From Cellulomonas aerilata (GTDB lineage Bacteria; Actinomycetota; Actinomycetes; Actinomycetales; Cellulomonadaceae): DNA of 64,000 nt. Shown piece after piece: positions 7,111 to 34,187 of this stretch. Position 1 is the first letter of the stretch. Each line of letters opens with the position of its first letter. The stretch spans positions 62,001-126,000 of the forward strand of contig NZ_BJYY01000022.1 of assembly GCF_007991755.1 (NCBI RefSeq). Reading direction: 5' to 3'. Made by a program: the position numbers and the translations under genes. The notes under the pieces are model-generated. The model ran no database searches and was not told the DNA's origin. It worked only from the letters and a program-made list of their open reading frames with translations.

Positions 7111-8235
7111 ATGACCCGCTCCGACACCGACCTCGCGACCGTCGCCGTGGCCGAGGACGCGTTCGTCGTCCACCGCACCGGCAGCCCCTTGCCGGACGCC
7201 CAGCGTGAGGCAGCGCTGGCCCAGCCCAAGTTCGGCACGGTCTTCACCGACCACATGGCCCGGGCCACCTGGACGGCCGGGGACGGCTGGCACGACCGCC
7301 GGGTGGAGCGGTACGGGCCCCTGCAGCTGGACCCCGCGGCCGCCGTCCTGCACTACGGGCAGGAGATCTTCGAGGGGCTCAAGGCCTACCGGCACGACGA
7401 CGGGTCGGTCTGGACCTTCCGCCCGTGGGCCAACGCCGCGCGGTTCGCGGCGTCGGCGTACCGCATCGCGCTCCCCGAGCTCCCGCAGGAGGACTTCCTC
7501 GGCGCGATCACCGCGCTCGTGCGCACCGACGCCGCGTGGGTGCCGGGCGGCGAGGAGATGAGCCTGTACCTGCGGCCGTTCATGTACGCCTCGGAGCGGT
7601 TCCTCGGGGTGCGGCCGTCGCTCGAGGCCGAGTTCCTCGTGATCGCCTCGCCGGTGGGCCCCTACTTCGCCGGCGGGGTGCAGCCGGTGTCCATCTGGGT
7701 CGCCCAGGACTTCCACCGGGCCGGCGCGGGTGGCACCGGGGCGGCGAAGTTCGGCGGCAACTACGCCGGCAGCCTGCTGCCGCAGCAGGTCGCGCACGCC
7801 AAGGGCTTCGACCAGGTCTGCTTCCTCGACGCCGCCACGAACAGCGTGCTGGAGGAGCTCGGCGGGATGAACGTGTTCGTCGTCGAGGCCGACGGCCGGG
7901 TGTCCACCCCCGAGCTCACCGGCTCGATCCTCGAGGGCGTGACCCGGTCGTCCATCCTGCGGCTGCTGTCCGACGCGGGCCACGAGGTCGCCGAGCGCCG
8001 CATCCCGCTCGACGAGGTCCGAGCCGGCCTCGCCGACGGGCGCGTCGCGGAGGTCTTCGCGTGCGGCACCGCCGCCGTGGTGACCCCGATCGGGCGGCTG
8101 GCGGGGGACGACTTCGACCTCACGGTCGGCGACGGGACGTCCGGACCCGTCACCACCCGCATCCGCGCCCAGCTCACCGACATCCAGTACGGCCGAGCCG
8201 CCGACCCCCACGGCTGGATGCACCGCCTCATCTGA
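7111..8235 (+). CDS. ilvE: Branched-chain-amino-acid aminotransferase
   Basis: PLP-dependent class IV aminotransferase for the last step of Leu, Ile and Val synthesis. 374 residues. Visible are YGQEIFEGLKAYR (about 83-95), the arginine-bearing FRPWANAARF, the PLP lysine in GAAKFGGNYAGSL (about 213), LEELGGMNVF, and the phosphate-binding end ACGTAAVVTPIG. ATG at 7111 is used; GGTGAAAGG lies about 10 bases upstream, and the in-frame GTG inside that purine run (7093) is less likely. Repeat array B follows. Confidence 0.96.
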   Translation: MTRSDTDLATVAVAEDAFVVHRTGSPLPDAQREAALAQPKFGTVFTDHMARATWTAGDGWHDRRVERYGPLQLDPAAAVLHYGQEIFEGLKAYRHDDGSVWTFRPWANAARFAASAYRIALPELPQEDFLGAITALVRTDAAWVPGGEEMSLYLRPFMYASERFLGVRPSLEAEFLVIASPVGPYFAGGVQPVSIWVAQDFHRAGAGGTGAAKFGGNYAGSLLPQQVAHAKGFDQVCFLDAATNSVLEELGGMNVFVVEADGRVSTPELTGSILEGVTRSSILRLLSDAGHEVAERRIPLDEVRAGLADGRVAEVFACGTAAVVTPIGRLAGDDFDLTVGDGTSGPVTTRIRAQLTDIQYGRAADPHGWMHRLI

Positions 8236-8287
8236 CACCCACCGCCCGCCCGGCCCCTGCCCACCCCTCAGCGCCCCTCCACTCCCA

Positions 8288-8350
8288 CCGCCGGGTGCGA
8301 CGTCCCGGACCTCTCCCGCGAGGCCATGGGTCCACGACGTCGCACTCGGC
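8288..8350 (+). repeat. Palindromic repeat B1 (GAGTGCGACGT family)
   Basis: A diverged forward half-element (GGGTGCGACGTCCCGGACC, near 8293-8311) faces a reverse one (GGTCCACGACGTCGCACTCG, near 8329-8348). Together they can fold into an imperfect stem-loop just downstream of ilvE. Same family as arrays A, C and D. Confidence 0.8.
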
Positions 8351-25717: not shown

Positions 25718-25759
25718 CGCCGCGTCGGCGCACTCCGGCCGTCCACCTAGGGTGTGCGC

Positions 25760-26545
25760 ATGCGCATCGCCAGGTTCACGACCGGGAACGACCCCCGCTA
25801 CGCCCTCGTCGACGGCGAGGCCGGCTCCGAGCGGCTCGTGGTGATCAGCGGGGACCCCATCTACACCCCCGTGCAGCCGACCGGCGAGGAGATCCCGCTC
25901 GCCGACGACGCGGTGCGCCTGCTGGCGCCGGTGATCCCGCGGTCCAAGGTGATCGGCATCGGGCGCAACTACGCCGCGCACGCCGCCGAGCTCGGCAACG
26001 ACGTGCCCACCCGGCCGCTGGTGTTCCTCAAGCCGAACACCTCGGTCGTCGGGCCGGACGACCCCATCGTGCTGCCGTCCTACTCGGACGAGGTGCACCA
26101 CGAGGCCGAGCTCGCCGTCGTCATCGGCAAGGTCGTCAAGGACGTCACCCCGGAGCGGGCGCTCGACCACGTGTTCGGCTACACCGTCGCCAACGACGTG
26201 AGCGCGCGCGACGTGCAGCGCTCGGACGAGCAGTGGACCCGCGCCAAGGGCTTCGACTCCTCGTGCCCGCTCGGCCCCTGGATCGTCACCGGGCTGGACG
26301 TGGACGACCTGCAGGTCACCGCGCGCGTCAACGGCGACACCCGGCAGGACGGTCGGACGTCGCAGCTGATCTTCGACGTGCCGTACCTGATCTCGTACGT
26401 GTCGGAGATCTTCACGCTGCTGCCCGGCGACGTCATCCTCACCGGCACCCCGGCCGGCGTCGGGCCGATCGTGCACCGCGACGTCGTCGAGTGCGAGGTC
26501 GAGGGGATCGGCGTCCTGCGCAACCCGGTCATCCGGCGCGACTGA
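25760..26545 (+). CDS. Fumarylacetoacetate hydrolase family protein
   Basis: 261 residues. FAH C-terminal-type fold used by hydratases, decarboxylases and acylpyruvases of aromatic or keto-acid catabolism. Metal ligands appear in EVHHEAELAVVIGK (ExE) and in the later FTVANDVSARD segment, followed by RAKGFDSSCPLGPWIV and TPAGVG. The short N-terminal region (1-60) is the usual non-catalytic cap. Exact substrate not determinable. TAGGGT (25748-25753) ends six bases before ATG 25760: leaderless start preferred over GTG 25754. Confidence 0.87.
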   Translation: MRIARFTTGNDPRYALVDGEAGSERLVVISGDPIYTPVQPTGEEIPLADDAVRLLAPVIPRSKVIGIGRNYAAHAAELGNDVPTRPLVFLKPNTSVVGPDDPIVLPSYSDEVHHEAELAVVIGKVVKDVTPERALDHVFGYTVANDVSARDVQRSDEQWTRAKGFDSSCPLGPWIVTGLDVDDLQVTARVNGDTRQDGRTSQLIFDVPYLISYVSEIFTLLPGDVILTGTPAGVGPIVHRDVVECEVEGIGVLRNPVIRRD

Positions 26546-26589
26546 GCGCGACCGGCGCCGGCCGGCGGGCGGGCGACCACGCCGATCCC

Positions 26590-26633
26590 GCGCCGAGCCT
26601 GCGCCGAGCCTGCGCCGAGCCCGCGCCGAGCCC
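26590..26633. repeat. 11-base tandem repeat in a convergent gap
   Basis: Four head-to-tail copies of GCGCCGAGCCT with small changes, between the FAA hydrolase gene and the LOV-GGDEF gene (convergent). No coding role; possible folding into GC-rich stems, function unknown. Confidence 0.75.
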
Positions 26634-26652
26634 GGTCCGGGAGCCGGCCGGG

Positions 26653-27552
26653 TCAGCGGCCGCGGTGGTCGGCGCGCGCGGCCGCTCGCCGCTTGCGCGC
26701 GTACATGGCGGAGTCCGCCTCGTCGAGGAGCTGACGTCCGGTGGCGGCGCCTGCGGTGTGGACCGCGGCCCCGATGCTGACGGTGGTGCGGTACTCGGTG
26801 CCGTCGAGGGGCACCGGCTGCGCCAGGGACCGCTCGAGGTCCTCGACCACCGCGTCGACGCTGTCCTGCGCGAGCTCGACGGGCAGGTCCGTGAGCAGGG
26901 CGACGAACTCGTCCCCGCCCAGACGTGCGACGGCGTCCTGCGTGCGCAGGCTGCGTCGCAGCAGCCGGGAGACGTGCCGGAGGAACTCGTCGCCCACCAG
27001 GTGCCCGCGGGTGTCGTTGACCTTCTTGAAGTGGTCGACGTCGGCGAACAGCACGCCGACCGCCGTGCCGTTGCGCGCCGCCCGGGCGAGCTCGCGGTCG
27101 AGCTCCTCCACGAAGGCGGTGCGGTTGAGCAGTCCGGTCAGGGGGTCGTGCGTGGCGGCCTGACGTTCGGCCTCCCGCTCGGTCATCTCGTCGGTGACGT
27201 CGCGCTGGGTCGCCATGTAGTGGGTGATGCTGCCGGTGGCGTCGTGGACGGGGGAGATCCGCAGCTCGTTCCAGAACTCCGTGCCGTCGGCGCGGTAGTT
27301 CACGATCCGGCACTCGACCGGCTCCCCGGCGCGCACGGCGTCGCGGATCGCCCGCACCGTCCCGGGGTCGGTGGCGGGACCCTGCAGGAAGCGGCAGTTC
27401 GTCCCGACGGCCTCGGCCTCGGTGTACCCGGTGAGCTCGGTGAAGGCGGGGTTGACGTACACCACGGGCAGGTCCGGGGCGGACGCGTCGCAGATGACGA
27501 CCGTCGTGCGGGACGCCGCGACGCTCGCCATGATCAGGGCAGCGACCTCCAT
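26653..27552 (-). CDS. LOV-domain diguanylate cyclase (blue-light GGDEF protein)
   Basis: 299 residues from ATG 27552. A PAS domain of the LOV type spans about 5-120: VVYVNPAFTELTGY, then TNCRFLQGP with the photoactive Cys53, and NYRADGTEFWNELRISPV with flavin-binding residues, ending THYMATQRDVT. A short linker helix joins the GGDEF domain (about 135-290): DPLTGLLNR, FADVDHFKKVND, and the active site LGGDEF (212-216). An inhibitory site RTQD sits five residues before GGDEF. So it should make c-di-GMP under blue-light control, with product inhibition. GAGGTG six bases before this ATG decides the start; GTG 27672, nine bases after a TAGGCT box, would add 40 low-complexity residues. Confidence 0.88.
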   Translation of the reverse strand: MEVAALIMASVAASRTTVVICDASAPDLPVVYVNPAFTELTGYTEAEAVGTNCRFLQGPATDPGTVRAIRDAVRAGEPVECRIVNYRADGTEFWNELRISPVHDATGSITHYMATQRDVTDEMTEREAERQAATHDPLTGLLNRTAFVEELDRELARAARNGTAVGVLFADVDHFKKVNDTRGHLVGDEFLRHVSRLLRRSLRTQDAVARLGGDEFVALLTDLPVELAQDSVDAVVEDLERSLAQPVPLDGTEYRTTVSIGAAVHTAGAATGRQLLDEADSAMYARKRRAAARADHRGR

Positions 27553-27772
27553 CGGGCCCACCTCGCCTTCTGCGTTCGTCCGGGGCTGCCTGCTGGTGGC
27601 CGGGCGGGGCGCGTCGCCTGCGACCGTAGCCGGGGCGGCGCCCGTCGGCACGGTGTCCCGGGCATGGGGCACGCGACCGCGAGCCTAACGGCGCCCGGCG
27701 GGACGTGCCGCCGGCCGTGCGGGCACCCTCGCCCGCCCCGGGGCCACGCGGCGCCCGCACTACGCTGGCGCG

Positions 27773-29314
27773 GTGACTCCCGCCCCCACCGACACCCCGA
27801 CCGACACGCCCACCGGACGCGACGTCCGGGTGCGGTTCTGCCCCTCGCCGACCGGCACGCCGCACGTCGGGCTGATCCGCACCGCCCTGTTCAACTGGGC
27901 GTACGCGCGGCACACCGGCGGCACGTTCGTGTTCCGCATCGAGGACACCGACGCCGCCCGGGACAGCGAGGAGAGCTACCGGCAGCTGCTCGACGCGCTG
28001 CGCTGGCTCGGCCTGGACTGGGACGAGGGCGTCGAGGTCGGCGGGCCGCACGAGCCGTACCGGCAGTCGCAGCGGATGGACCTCTACCGCGACGTCGTCG
28101 AGCGCCTCGTCGCCGGCGGGTACGCCTACGAGTCCTTCTCCACGCCCGAGGAGATCGAGTCGCGCCACCGCGCCGCCGGGCGCGACCCCAAGCTCGGCTA
28201 CGACGGCGCCGACCGGCACACGACGGAGGAGGAGAAGGCCGCTTTCCGCCGCGAGGGCCGCGCGCCCGTGCTGCGCCTGCGCATGCCGGACGACGACGTC
28301 ACGTTCACCGACCTCGTGCGCGGCGACGTGACCTTCCGGGCGGGCTCGGTGCCCGACTACGTGATCGTGCGCGGCAACGGCCAGCCGCTCTACACGCTGG
28401 TCAACCCAGTCGACGACGCCCTCATGGGCATCACCCACGTGCTGCGCGGGGAGGACCTGCTGTCCTCCACCCCCCGCCAGGTCGCCCTCTACCGCGCGCT
28501 GCTCGACATCGGCGTCGCCACGGTGATGCCGCTGTTCGGGCACCTGCCGTACGTCATGGGGGAGGGCAACAAGAAGCTCTCCAAGCGCGACCCCGAGTCG
28601 AACCTCTTCCTGCACCGCGAGCGCGGGTTCACCCCCGAGGGGCTGCTCAACTACCTCGCGCTGCTCGGCTGGGGCCTGAGCCACGACCGGGACGTCTTCA
28701 CGGTCGAGGAGATGGTCGAGGCGTTCGACATCGTCGACGTGAACCCCAACCCGGCCCGCTTCGACCTCAAGAAGGCCGAGGCGATCAACGCCTCGCACGT
28801 GCGGCTCATGTCGCCCGAGGAGTTCCGGGACCGGCTGGTCCCGTACCTGCACCGCGCGGGCCTGGTCGCCGGGGACTCGTACGCCGACCTGCGGCCCGAG
28901 CACCGCGCCCTGCTGGACGCCGGCGCCCCGCTCGTCCAGGAGCGCATGACGCTGCTCGGCGAGGCCCCCGGCATGCTGGGCTTCCTGTTCGTCGCCGACG
29001 ACGCCGTCGTGCTCGAGGCCGAGGCCGTCGGCGCCCTGCGCGAGGAGGCGCCCGCGGTCCTCGACGCCGCGCTGACCGCGCTGGAGCCGATCCCGGCCGA
29101 CGGCTTCACCGCCGAGCCGGTGCAGGACGCCCTCAAGGCGGCCCTCGTCGACGGGCTCGGCATCAAGCCGCGGTTCGCCTACACCCCGCTGCGCACCGCC
29201 GTGTCCGGCCGGCGCGTGTCGCCGCCGCTGTTCGAGTCGATGGAGATCCTCGGCAAGGACGCCTCGCTGGCCCGGCTGCGGCGTCTGCGCGCGACCCTCG
29301 GGGACGCCGGGTGA
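27773..29314 (+). CDS. gltX: Glutamyl-tRNA synthetase
   Basis: Charges tRNA-Glu (and, in most actinobacteria, tRNA-Gln before amidation). 513 residues. Class I signatures: [21 protein letters not shown] (HIGH-like) at about 22-42, [10 protein letters not shown], and the KLSKRDP loop (KMSKS equivalent, about 265). The C-terminal anticodon-binding helical domain covers about 330-510. N-terminal residues 4-13 are a small [10 protein letters not shown] repeat. TACGCT (27761-27766) ends six bases before GTG 27773: leaderless. The next gene overlaps the stop by four bases. Confidence 0.97.
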
Positions 29315-32091: not shown

Positions 32092-32190
32092 CCCGCACCG
32101 GCGGCACCGGCAGCACCGCCGGTGCCGCGGCACCGGCGCCCGACGCCGGCGCACGCCCTCCCTGGCCCCGCTGCCTGGGAGGGTGAGCCC

Positions 32191-33585
32191 ATGACCGGCA
32201 TGCTGACCGCCTGGCAGCGGCAGACCGACCCCGAGCGGGTCGACATGTACACCCGCTGGACGATCTACCTGCTGCTGGCCAGCGCACCGCTGGTCGCCCT
32301 GTCCCTGACCTCCGGGCTCACCACCCGCGCCGCCGCGGTGTTCGTCACGCTCACGGTCGCGCAGACGGTCGCGGCGGTGGGTGTCGTCCGGGCGGCGCTG
32401 GTCCGGCTGGTGACCGGCGCGCCGCTGTCGCGCCCGTGGCTGGCCGCGCTCGCAGCCACGACCCTCGGCGCCCTGGGGGTCGCGGTCGCCGCCCTGCCGC
32501 TGACCGGCGACCTCGACCAGCCGGTCCGCTCGCTAGCCCTGCTCGTGACGCTCGCCCTGGCCCTGATGGCCGTGGCGCCCGTGCTGGGTGTGCGCACCCT
32601 GGGGCTGTGCGGCGTCGGCGTCGGCGTCGTGGTCGCGGTCACCGAGGTCGCGGCCGGTCGGGAGGGCGCCTGGGTCGTCGGCGTGCTGTGCGTCCTGGTC
32701 GTGTGGGGGATGGCGGTCAGCTTCCGGATCTCGGGCTGGATGCTCGCGGTCGTGTGGGAGCAGGAGCGCTCGCGGACCGTGCACGCCCGGCTCGCGGTGG
32801 CGGAGGAGCGCCTGCGCTTCTCCCGTGACCTGCACGACGTCGTCGGCCGCACGCTGTCCGCCATCGCGGTGAAGAGCGAGCTCGCCGCCGAGCTGGCACG
32901 GCGCGGGCAGGACGGCGCCGTCGAGCAGATGGCCGAGGTCCGCGACCTCGCGCAGGAGTCGCTGCGGGAGGTCCGCGGGGTCGTCTCCGGTCTGCGGACG
33001 GCCGACCTCGCCGCCGAGCTCACCGGGGCACGGTCCGTGCTGCGCTCCGCCGGGATCGACACGCGCGTCGTGGGGGAGGGCACGGCGCTGCCCGACGACG
33101 TCCAGCGCGCCCTGGCCTGGGTGGTGCGCGAGGCGGTCACGAACGTCGTCCGGCACGCGCACGCCCGGCGCTGCACCATCGACCTCGACGTGATCGGCAC
33201 CGGCGCACCCAGCAGCGCCGGCAGGCACGGCCGGCACGACCGCGCGGTCGCCGTCCTCACCATCACCAACGACGGGCTGACGGACGACGGCGGCACGGGT
33301 GAGGGCGGCACGGGCGAGGGCGGCACGGGCGAGGGCGGCACGGGCGGTGGCACGACCAACGGCCTCTCGGGGGAGGGCCGCACCGCCGACGGTGGCACCG
33401 GCGACGGCCTCGTCAGCGACGGCGTCGCCGCCGTCCGGCCGGGCACCACCGGCTCCGGCCTGGTCGGTCTCACCGAGCGGCTGGCGGAGGTCGGCGGCTC
33501 CCTGACCGCCACCGCCGACGGCGACCGGTTCACCCTGCGCGCCACCGTCCCGCTGCCGGCGGCTGACAGCATGGCCGCACGATGA
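32191..33585 (+). CDS. NarL-type sensor histidine kinase with a repeat-expanded ATP lid
   Basis: 464 residues. Five to six helices (about 25-190) with no large extracellular domain, then a HisKA_3 dimerization box with the phosphoacceptor His in FSRDLHDVVGRTLSAIAVK, and a HATPase domain: N box REAVTNVVRHAHA, G1 ITNDG, G2 GSGLVGLTERL. Between G1 and G2 (about 366-418) lies a Gly/Thr-rich insert of about 50 residues with four GEGGT repeats (15-base units), where related kinases have only a short ATP lid. Such kinases without a sensor domain often sense the adjacent transporter. GGGAGGGTGAGCCC precedes ATG 32191. Confidence 0.9.
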   Translation: MTGMLTAWQRQTDPERVDMYTRWTIYLLLASAPLVALSLTSGLTTRAAAVFVTLTVAQTVAAVGVVRAALVRLVTGAPLSRPWLAALAATTLGALGVAVAALPLTGDLDQPVRSLALLVTLALALMAVAPVLGVRTLGLCGVGVGVVVAVTEVAAGREGAWVVGVLCVLVVWGMAVSFRISGWMLAVVWEQERSRTVHARLAVAEERLRFSRDLHDVVGRTLSAIAVKSELAAELARRGQDGAVEQMAEVRDLAQESLREVRGVVSGLRTADLAAELTGARSVLRSAGIDTRVVGEGTALPDDVQRALAWVVREAVTNVVRHAHARRCTIDLDVIGTGAPSSAGRHGRHDRAVAVLTITNDGLTDDGGTGEGGTGEGGTGEGGTGGGTTNGLSGEGRTADGGTGDGLVSDGVAAVRPGTTGSGLVGLTERLAEVGGSLTATADGDRFTLRATVPLPAADSMAAR

Positions 33586-34187
33586 TCCGCATCCTGCTCG
33601 CCGACGACGAGACCCTCATCCGCGACGCCCTGGCCGGACTGCTCGGGCTCGAGGACGACCTGGAGGTGGTCGCCACGGCGGCGTCCGGGACGGAGGCGGT
33701 GGACGCCGGCCGCCGGCACCGGCCGGACGTCGCAGTCCTGGACCTGCAGATGCCCGGGCTGGACGGCATCGCCGCCGCGCAGCGGCTCTCGGCCGAGGTG
33801 CCCGGCTGCCGGACCGTCATCGTGACCAGCCACGGGCGGCCCGGGCACCTCAAGCGCGCCCTCACGGCGGGGGTCGCGGGGTTCCTGCCGAAGACCGTGT
33901 CCGCACGCGTGCTCGCCGACGTCGTCCGGCAGGTGCACGCCGGCGGCCGGTACGTCGACCCCGAGCTCGCCGCGGAGGCGATCAGCGCGGGGGAGTCACC
34001 CCTGACGCCGCGCGAGGCCGACGTGCTCGAGCTCGCCGCCGGCGGCGCCGGCGTGGAGGAGATCGCCCAGCGCGCGCACCTGAGCCCCGGCACGGTGCGC
34101 AACTACCTGTCGGCGGCGGTCACCAAGCTCGGTGCGGCGAACCGGCACGAGGCCGTCCACGTGGCCCGCCGGCACGGCTGGATCTGA
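33582..34187 (+). CDS. NarL/LuxR-family response regulator
   Basis: 201 residues. Receiver domain (about 1-120): acidic pocket ADDE, phosphoacceptor Asp in VAVLDLQMPGLDG (about 52), Thr/Ser in VTSHG, Lys in LPKTV. LuxR-type HTH at about 140-200: LTPREADVLELAAGGAGVEEIAQRAHLSPGTVRNYLS. Start overlaps the kinase stop (ATGA). Probable target: the CATGAC palindrome ahead of the operon. Confidence 0.93.
   Translation: MIRILLADDETLIRDALAGLLGLEDDLEVVATAASGTEAVDAGRRHRPDVAVLDLQMPGLDGIAAAQRLSAEVPGCRTVIVTSHGRPGHLKRALTAGVAGFLPKTVSARVLADVVRQVHAGGRYVDPELAAEAISAGESPLTPREADVLELAAGGAGVEEIAQRAHLSPGTVRNYLSAAVTKLGAANRHEAVHVARRHGWI

Follow-up and report, generated by a model that had tools for sequence, protein, structure and literature searches.

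The window, i.e., the whole stretch of 64,000 nucleotides of Cellulomonas aerilata DNA that was analysed (GC 75%), contains on its minus strand an open frame at 26653-27672 in which a PAS/LOV domain is followed directly by a GGDEF domain. Translation and Pfam bear out what the first-pass annotation had said of this frame, namely that it is open and holds the motifs attributed to it. The features of the locus, which includes one gene on either side, are as follows:

25754-26545, plus strand: fumarylacetoacetate hydrolase (FAH)-family gene, convergent neighbour.
26653-27552, minus strand: ladC-like gene of 299 aa (LOV sensor, helical linker and GGDEF diguanylate cyclase), with its stop at 26653-26655.
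26686-27156, minus strand: GGDEF domain (Pfam, 5.1e-44).
26905-26919, minus strand: GGDEF active-site motif, residues 212-216 (motif reading).
26935-26946, minus strand: RTQD, the RxxD product-inhibition motif, residues 203-206 (motif reading).
27148-27204, minus strand: helical linker between LOV and GGDEF, residues 117-135, short by 14 residues relative to MsLadC.
27199-27504, minus strand: LOV core, residues 17-118, with NCRFLQ, NYRADGTEFWN and Gln116 (Pfam, alignment and motif reading).
27394-27396, minus strand: codon for Cys53, at which the flavin adduct is expected (sequence and motif reading).
27561-27564, minus strand: GAGG, a candidate ribosome-binding site 8 bases upstream of the ATG at 27552.
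27773-29314, plus strand: glutamyl-tRNA synthetase-type gene (gltX), divergent neighbour.

The ATG at 27552 is favoured as the start, given that the 40 codons of the upstream extension lack the coding pattern of the remainder of the frame (codon-position GC of 0.80/0.73/0.88 and 0.74/0.49/0.96, respectively) and that GAGG precedes this ATG. The GTG at 27672, from which the extension would be read, was rejected on the first of these grounds. A point against the ATG comes from the five other stand-alone relatives: the local matches of two of them start well within the extension, at query residues 8 and 16, and those of the remaining three at query residues 30, 40 and 45. The GTG at 27561 may be a further candidate. 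The structure model discussed below was built from the ATG start only, and is thus no test of this choice. Given that both adjoining genes lie on the other strand, a single-gene unit is likely, in agreement with the earlier description of the gene as monocistronic, and a consensus scan of 26500-27900 returned neither a promoter nor a terminator.

The ladC-like gene occupies the 1.2-kb gap between gltX and the FAH-family gene, on the opposite strand. A search for gltX in 20 relatives besides the own genome gave matches at threshold in 13, and the FAH-family gene was found inside the fetched 1.5 kb in 10 of these 13 loci, at less than 250 bases from gltX (between match ends) in eight; two of the 10 have a wider gap holding other open frames, and in the remaining three loci the fetched 1.5 kb gave no FAH match. 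A ladC match (E 1e-10) was found at none of the 13 gltX loci. As gltX and the FAH-family gene are close neighbours in eight of the 13 relatives and the gap is filled by ladC in the window, the arrangement fits a lineage-specific gain. Composition does not mark the gene as foreign, its GC and third-position GC (0.729/0.957) standing beside 0.711/0.992 and 0.732/0.988 in the neighbours. Elsewhere in the window, at 32122-34187, histidine kinase and response regulator genes follow an ABC transporter pair (names given by eye).

The protein had been credited with a LOV photoadduct motif, a flavin-contact segment, an intact GGDEF domain and an RxxD site five residues before it, and all four are present: TNCRFLQG holds Cys53 (numbered from the ATG at 27552), NYRADGTEFWN begins at residue 85, GGDEF and DVDHFKKVND read complete, and RTQD lies at the expected distance. 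Cys53, Gln116, N85 and N95 correspond to the adduct cysteine, the glutamine and the flavin-contact asparagines, and the motif spacing is that of a product-inhibited diguanylate cyclase, the inhibition itself being predicted. The Pfam matches (GGDEF, 5.1e-44; PAS_9, 3.4e-22) are far above chance, and the LOV half is also hit by two blue-light models of NCBIfam, BluLightHisKinLov (3.4e-41) and YtvA_fam (7.7e-40), both matches spanning this half only and falling under the whole-protein cut-offs.

Sequence and fold together support the reading as a diguanylate cyclase of the LOV type that has an RxxD site. The top PDB sequence match is 8c05_A (8.8e-45, residues 39-333 of the long reading), and the AlphaFold2 model (mean pLDDT 96), a monomer computed from an alignment with 25 relatives and therefore silent on the dimer arrangement, has the same LOV-activated diguanylate cyclase as its first Foldseek match (8c05, 5.5e-27). 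The full-length rmsd between the model and 8c05 is 15.6 Å, a large value that is expected if the placement of the domains differs, and the LOV part alone lies at 0.6 Å from the Meiothermus LOV domain 9vf7_A over 130 alignment columns. As a point against the LadC reading, strand I-beta reads YMATQ, and the column of Ala114 is Gly in seven of the nine other alignment rows and Ala in the two copies of genome G004.

Structure 8c05 is MsLadC, from Methylotenera sp., which shares the domain order of the window protein and is its best match in both sequence and fold; by own count on the alignment, its residue numbers coincide with those of the window protein from the ATG at 27552 as far as the linker, as at Glu96 and Gln116. 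Between Gln116 and the Asp of DxLT, the spacing is 20 in the window protein and, by the same count, 34 in MsLadC, so that the window linker is 14 residues, or two heptads, shorter. Among the 46 LOV/PAS-GGDEF regions gathered, the spacing is 20 in 33 and 34 in 13, with nothing intermediate, and on this basis the window protein is assigned by its sequence to the short-linker LadCs. In addition to the shorter linker, it has the other marks of this class, i.e., the adduct Cys, Gln and Asn and a GGDEF domain placed directly after the LOV domain, with no EAL; the 35-residue linker and caged dark state of the long-linker class would call for the 14 residues that are missing here.

According to the parts of PMC10396304 consulted, the LadC linkers form two subfamilies, of 21 (short) and 35 (long) residues, and light raises activity approximately 15-fold in short-linker LadCs and more than 10,000-fold in long-linker ones. 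In the dark, the long-linker LadC keeps its GGDEF domains caged, a state that the authors deduce from the structure to be beyond the reach of the shorter form, the 14 additional residues of MsLadC being what permits the cage. Activity is set by the register of the linker and by the I-site, as described in the portion of PMC12805367 seen. Given the short-linker class, the response is better predicted to be graded, and the connector would probably act as a dimmer with a modest output rather than a strict on-off control; a tight switch like that of MsLadC was rejected on the grounds of linker length. The gene had been described earlier as a direct switch, and this part of the description is not supported, given the modest response predicted by the short linker and a sign of the response that is not readable from the sequence.

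AoLadC (Aquella oligotrophica) and DpLadC (Deinococcus peraridilitoris), compared here by their description in PMC10396304 only, are likewise stand-alone proteins with a short linker, and a modest light response like theirs is predicted for the window protein. The RxxD motif of the window protein is implied by that paper for DpLadC as well, and AoLadC is described as lacking it. A point of difference is the linker core of the window protein, which is acidic and Ala-rich: counted here against the LadC papers, its presumed heptad-core positions are Glu122, Glu125, Arg126, Glu129, Ala132 and Ala133, and these charged or small residues suggest that the coiled coil may be weak. The string Actinobacter* does not occur in the main text of PMC10396304, and among the matches listed by literature searches on LOV and c-di-GMP, actinobacterial LOV, Cellulomonas c-di-GMP and DICT, this gene was not found in titles or abstract openings.

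Given this, the product of the gene is read as a short-linker LOV-activated diguanylate cyclase (LadC) that is soluble and stands alone, at a probability of about 0.7. Domain content, motifs, linker length and predicted fold are read directly, and from this point on we infer flavin binding, the photocycle, the dimer, the sign and size of the response, the feedback and the cellular output. In the proposed mechanism, blue light would be absorbed by FMN in the LOV domain, where a reversible flavin adduct would form with Cys53; protonation at flavin N5 would then be passed on by Gln116 to the LOV dimer's beta sheet, from which the signal would continue into the parallel linker helices.

The same parts could also be coupled in the opposite direction through the short linker, in which case blue light would repress the cyclase. 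A precedent is found in the LOV-GGDEF-EAL protein of Mesorhizobium loti, whose LOV-GGDEF fragment acts in E. coli as a cyclase that blue light represses (PMC9098866, as far as consulted), which is why the sequence does not reveal the sign; the acidic residues at the presumed core positions of the window linker, which differ from MsLadC, point the same way. The M. loti protein resembles the window protein in the order LOV then GGDEF and differs from it in having an EAL domain and lacking the Gln. On the other hand, light activation was measured for all four purified LadCs, two of them with short linkers (PMC10396304), which makes repression unlikely.

Activation by light, the preferred reading, would operate in a host that is rich in related genes. 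The genome (4.06 Mb) has 37 GGDEF matches, two of which stem from a single decayed gene on contig C10, and 28 EAL matches (27 above cut-off), together with one PilZ and two flagellin matches, from which motility may be guessed as the output. The earlier statement that other c-di-GMP genes are absent nearby is correct for the contig of the window (C22, 146,942 bases), on which there is no other GGDEF match and no EAL match. The sole PilZ match is a 239-residue frame at L185:6728-7444 on contig C10, near a pyruvate carboxylase-like gene.

Seven LOV-like matches were found in the host genome, of which two are weak (C9, C12) and the other five were examined. Two of these five belong to Cys-bearing LOV-GGDEF proteins that Pfam resolves as EAL-DICT-PAS/LOV-GGDEF, both on contig C13 of the host (G000):

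L184:4873-7239 (G000:C13): EAL-DICT-LOV-GGDEF protein.
L183:2816-5164 (G000:C13): EAL-DICT-LOV-GGDEF protein.

The pair lies at about 159 kb and 267 kb of the contig, in frames of 782 and 788 aa. As in the window protein, their LOV domain stands directly before the GGDEF domain, and they differ from it in their N-terminal EAL and DICT domains; the long spacing (34) occurs in the member that reads GGDEF, and the short spacing (20) in the one that reads SGDEF. The decayed gene on contig C10 is a broken LOV-GGDEF copy (L182, about 7376-8313, minus strand), with a LOV half that retains NCRFLQ in one frame and GGDEF pieces in others, and it stands next to genes of the GGDEF-EAL and TetR types. On contig C1 (L186:4536-6692, minus strand), a LOV-like PAS domain without the Cys (GRGVGLLHG) begins a 718-aa protein, the rest of which appears by eye to comprise GAF, a SpoIIE-type phosphatase and an ATPase.

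The idea that this is the only light or c-di-GMP gene of the host was therefore rejected, given the other LOV-GGDEF, GGDEF and EAL genes of the genome. The description of the system as unusual for its host is likewise not supported, because the genome has this large c-di-GMP and LOV set and because GGDEF, with or without EAL, is found in approximately 18% of bacterial LOV proteins, according to the part of PMC4844311 consulted; neither the architecture nor the use of c-di-GMP is out of the ordinary. With two more Cys-bearing LOV-coupled enzymes, one short-linker and one long-linker, light control of c-di-GMP in this host resembles a network more than an isolated curiosity.

Relatives were sought in the family at 1e-60, where at least six of 221 genomes match, five of them with stand-alone copies (six proteins) and the sixth with a longer one only, and at 1e-58 in the order (at least 15 of 396 genomes) and the phylum (at least 11 of 396), the own genome being included in each; as the family, order and phylum searches scored nine, five and five candidates per genome, all of these counts are minimum values. 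The six stand-alone proteins fall into a single clade (bootstrap 100, SH-aLRT 95), within which the window protein and four others group at 100/97. The tree was built without the decayed own copy (L182), and the plus-strand copy of G004 was taken from L187. In G004, contig C26, the two copies form a convergent pair (L187:7464-9441) between an MBL-fold gene and rph (neighbours identified by eye), one copy lacking both Cys and Gln and the other retaining Cys but lacking Gln.

Cys53 is replaced by Ala in three of the six clade members (G112, G107 and the minus-strand copy of G004), and both G004 copies have Leu or Val for Gln116 and Val or Ala for Asn95. The copy of G052 keeps Cys and Gln and reads GGDEL, and DLDDDKQVND with no Phe before the Lys, while G112 additionally reads FKGGND, so that the window copy is the only member of the six in which both the photochemical and the cyclase motifs are complete. 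As four of the five other members lack Cys, Gln or both, adduct-based light sensing is dispensable in the clade, which counts against the preferred reading. In the 22 other LOV-GGDEF regions of the same family and order (rows L073, L077, L078, L100, L101 and L210-L226), Cys and Gln are kept in all, and a Fisher test of four of six against none of 22 gives 0.0007, a value that ignores shared ancestry.

This comparison leaves out 18 rows that belong to a different family of the phylum (f34) or to proteobacteria; among them, the Cys position holds another residue in nine (Pro in seven, Tyr in one, Ser in one) and the Gln position in five. Although many of these 18 are apparently ordinary PAS domains, they show that in the wider sample the absence of Cys is not special to the stand-alone clade; all rows, moreover, were fetched by their similarity to the Cys-bearing window protein, which biases the sample toward Cys-bearing ones. 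Parsimony on the tree places two losses of Cys and one of Gln, although a single loss of Cys is possible, given the low support (86/67) of the fork at which the G004 copies join.

In the closest Cys-less pair, G112 and G107, dN and dS are 0.041 and 0.23 in the LOV half and 0.082 and 0.16 in the GGDEF half, and the low dN of the former relative to its dS suggests, for this single gene pair, that the LOV half is under constraint without the adduct. Flavin reduction, either chemical or by light, can signal in Cys-less LOV domains (PMC4682037, as far as seen). It is thus conceivable, as a tentative proposal with the odds against it, that the clade is shifting from adduct photochemistry to a light-independent sensing of flavin (redox) state while the c-di-GMP output is kept.

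Extended to the window protein itself, this would mean that flavin is bound and the cyclase answers mainly to redox state or flavin occupancy rather than light, with Cys53 as a remnant. The Ala found at the Cys position in three of the five other members, the absence of Gln in two, the little-changed LOV half of the Cys-less pair, as if an adduct-free task had been retained, and the signalling by reduction just cited would all agree with this. The window copy, however, retains Cys53, Gln116, N85, N95 and NCRFLQ, and as Cys-less LOV domains can still respond to light through photoreduction (PMC4682037), loss of the Cys alone is no proof of light independence, which leaves this account decidedly unlikely. 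That the protein might be light-switchable and catalytically idle, its GGDEF domain serving only as a receptor of c-di-GMP or GTP, is barely credible, since GGDEF, DVDHFKKVND and RTQD are intact in the window copy, even if the GGDEL and DLDDDKQVND of G052 indicate that decay of the output does occur in the clade.

The preferred reading, a short-linker LadC activated by light, adds a member of this class from a GC-rich genome to an architecture that was already known. The losses in the clade are the only part with some surprise, and they bear on the relatives more than on the gene of the window. With members that have lost Cys or Gln, the clade offers a natural test of what adduct chemistry contributes. 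Finally, if the shift toward light-independent sensing is true, the window copy would represent the fully photoactive state, and the clade would provide natural before-and-after pairs of a photoreceptor that becomes a different sort of flavin sensor.
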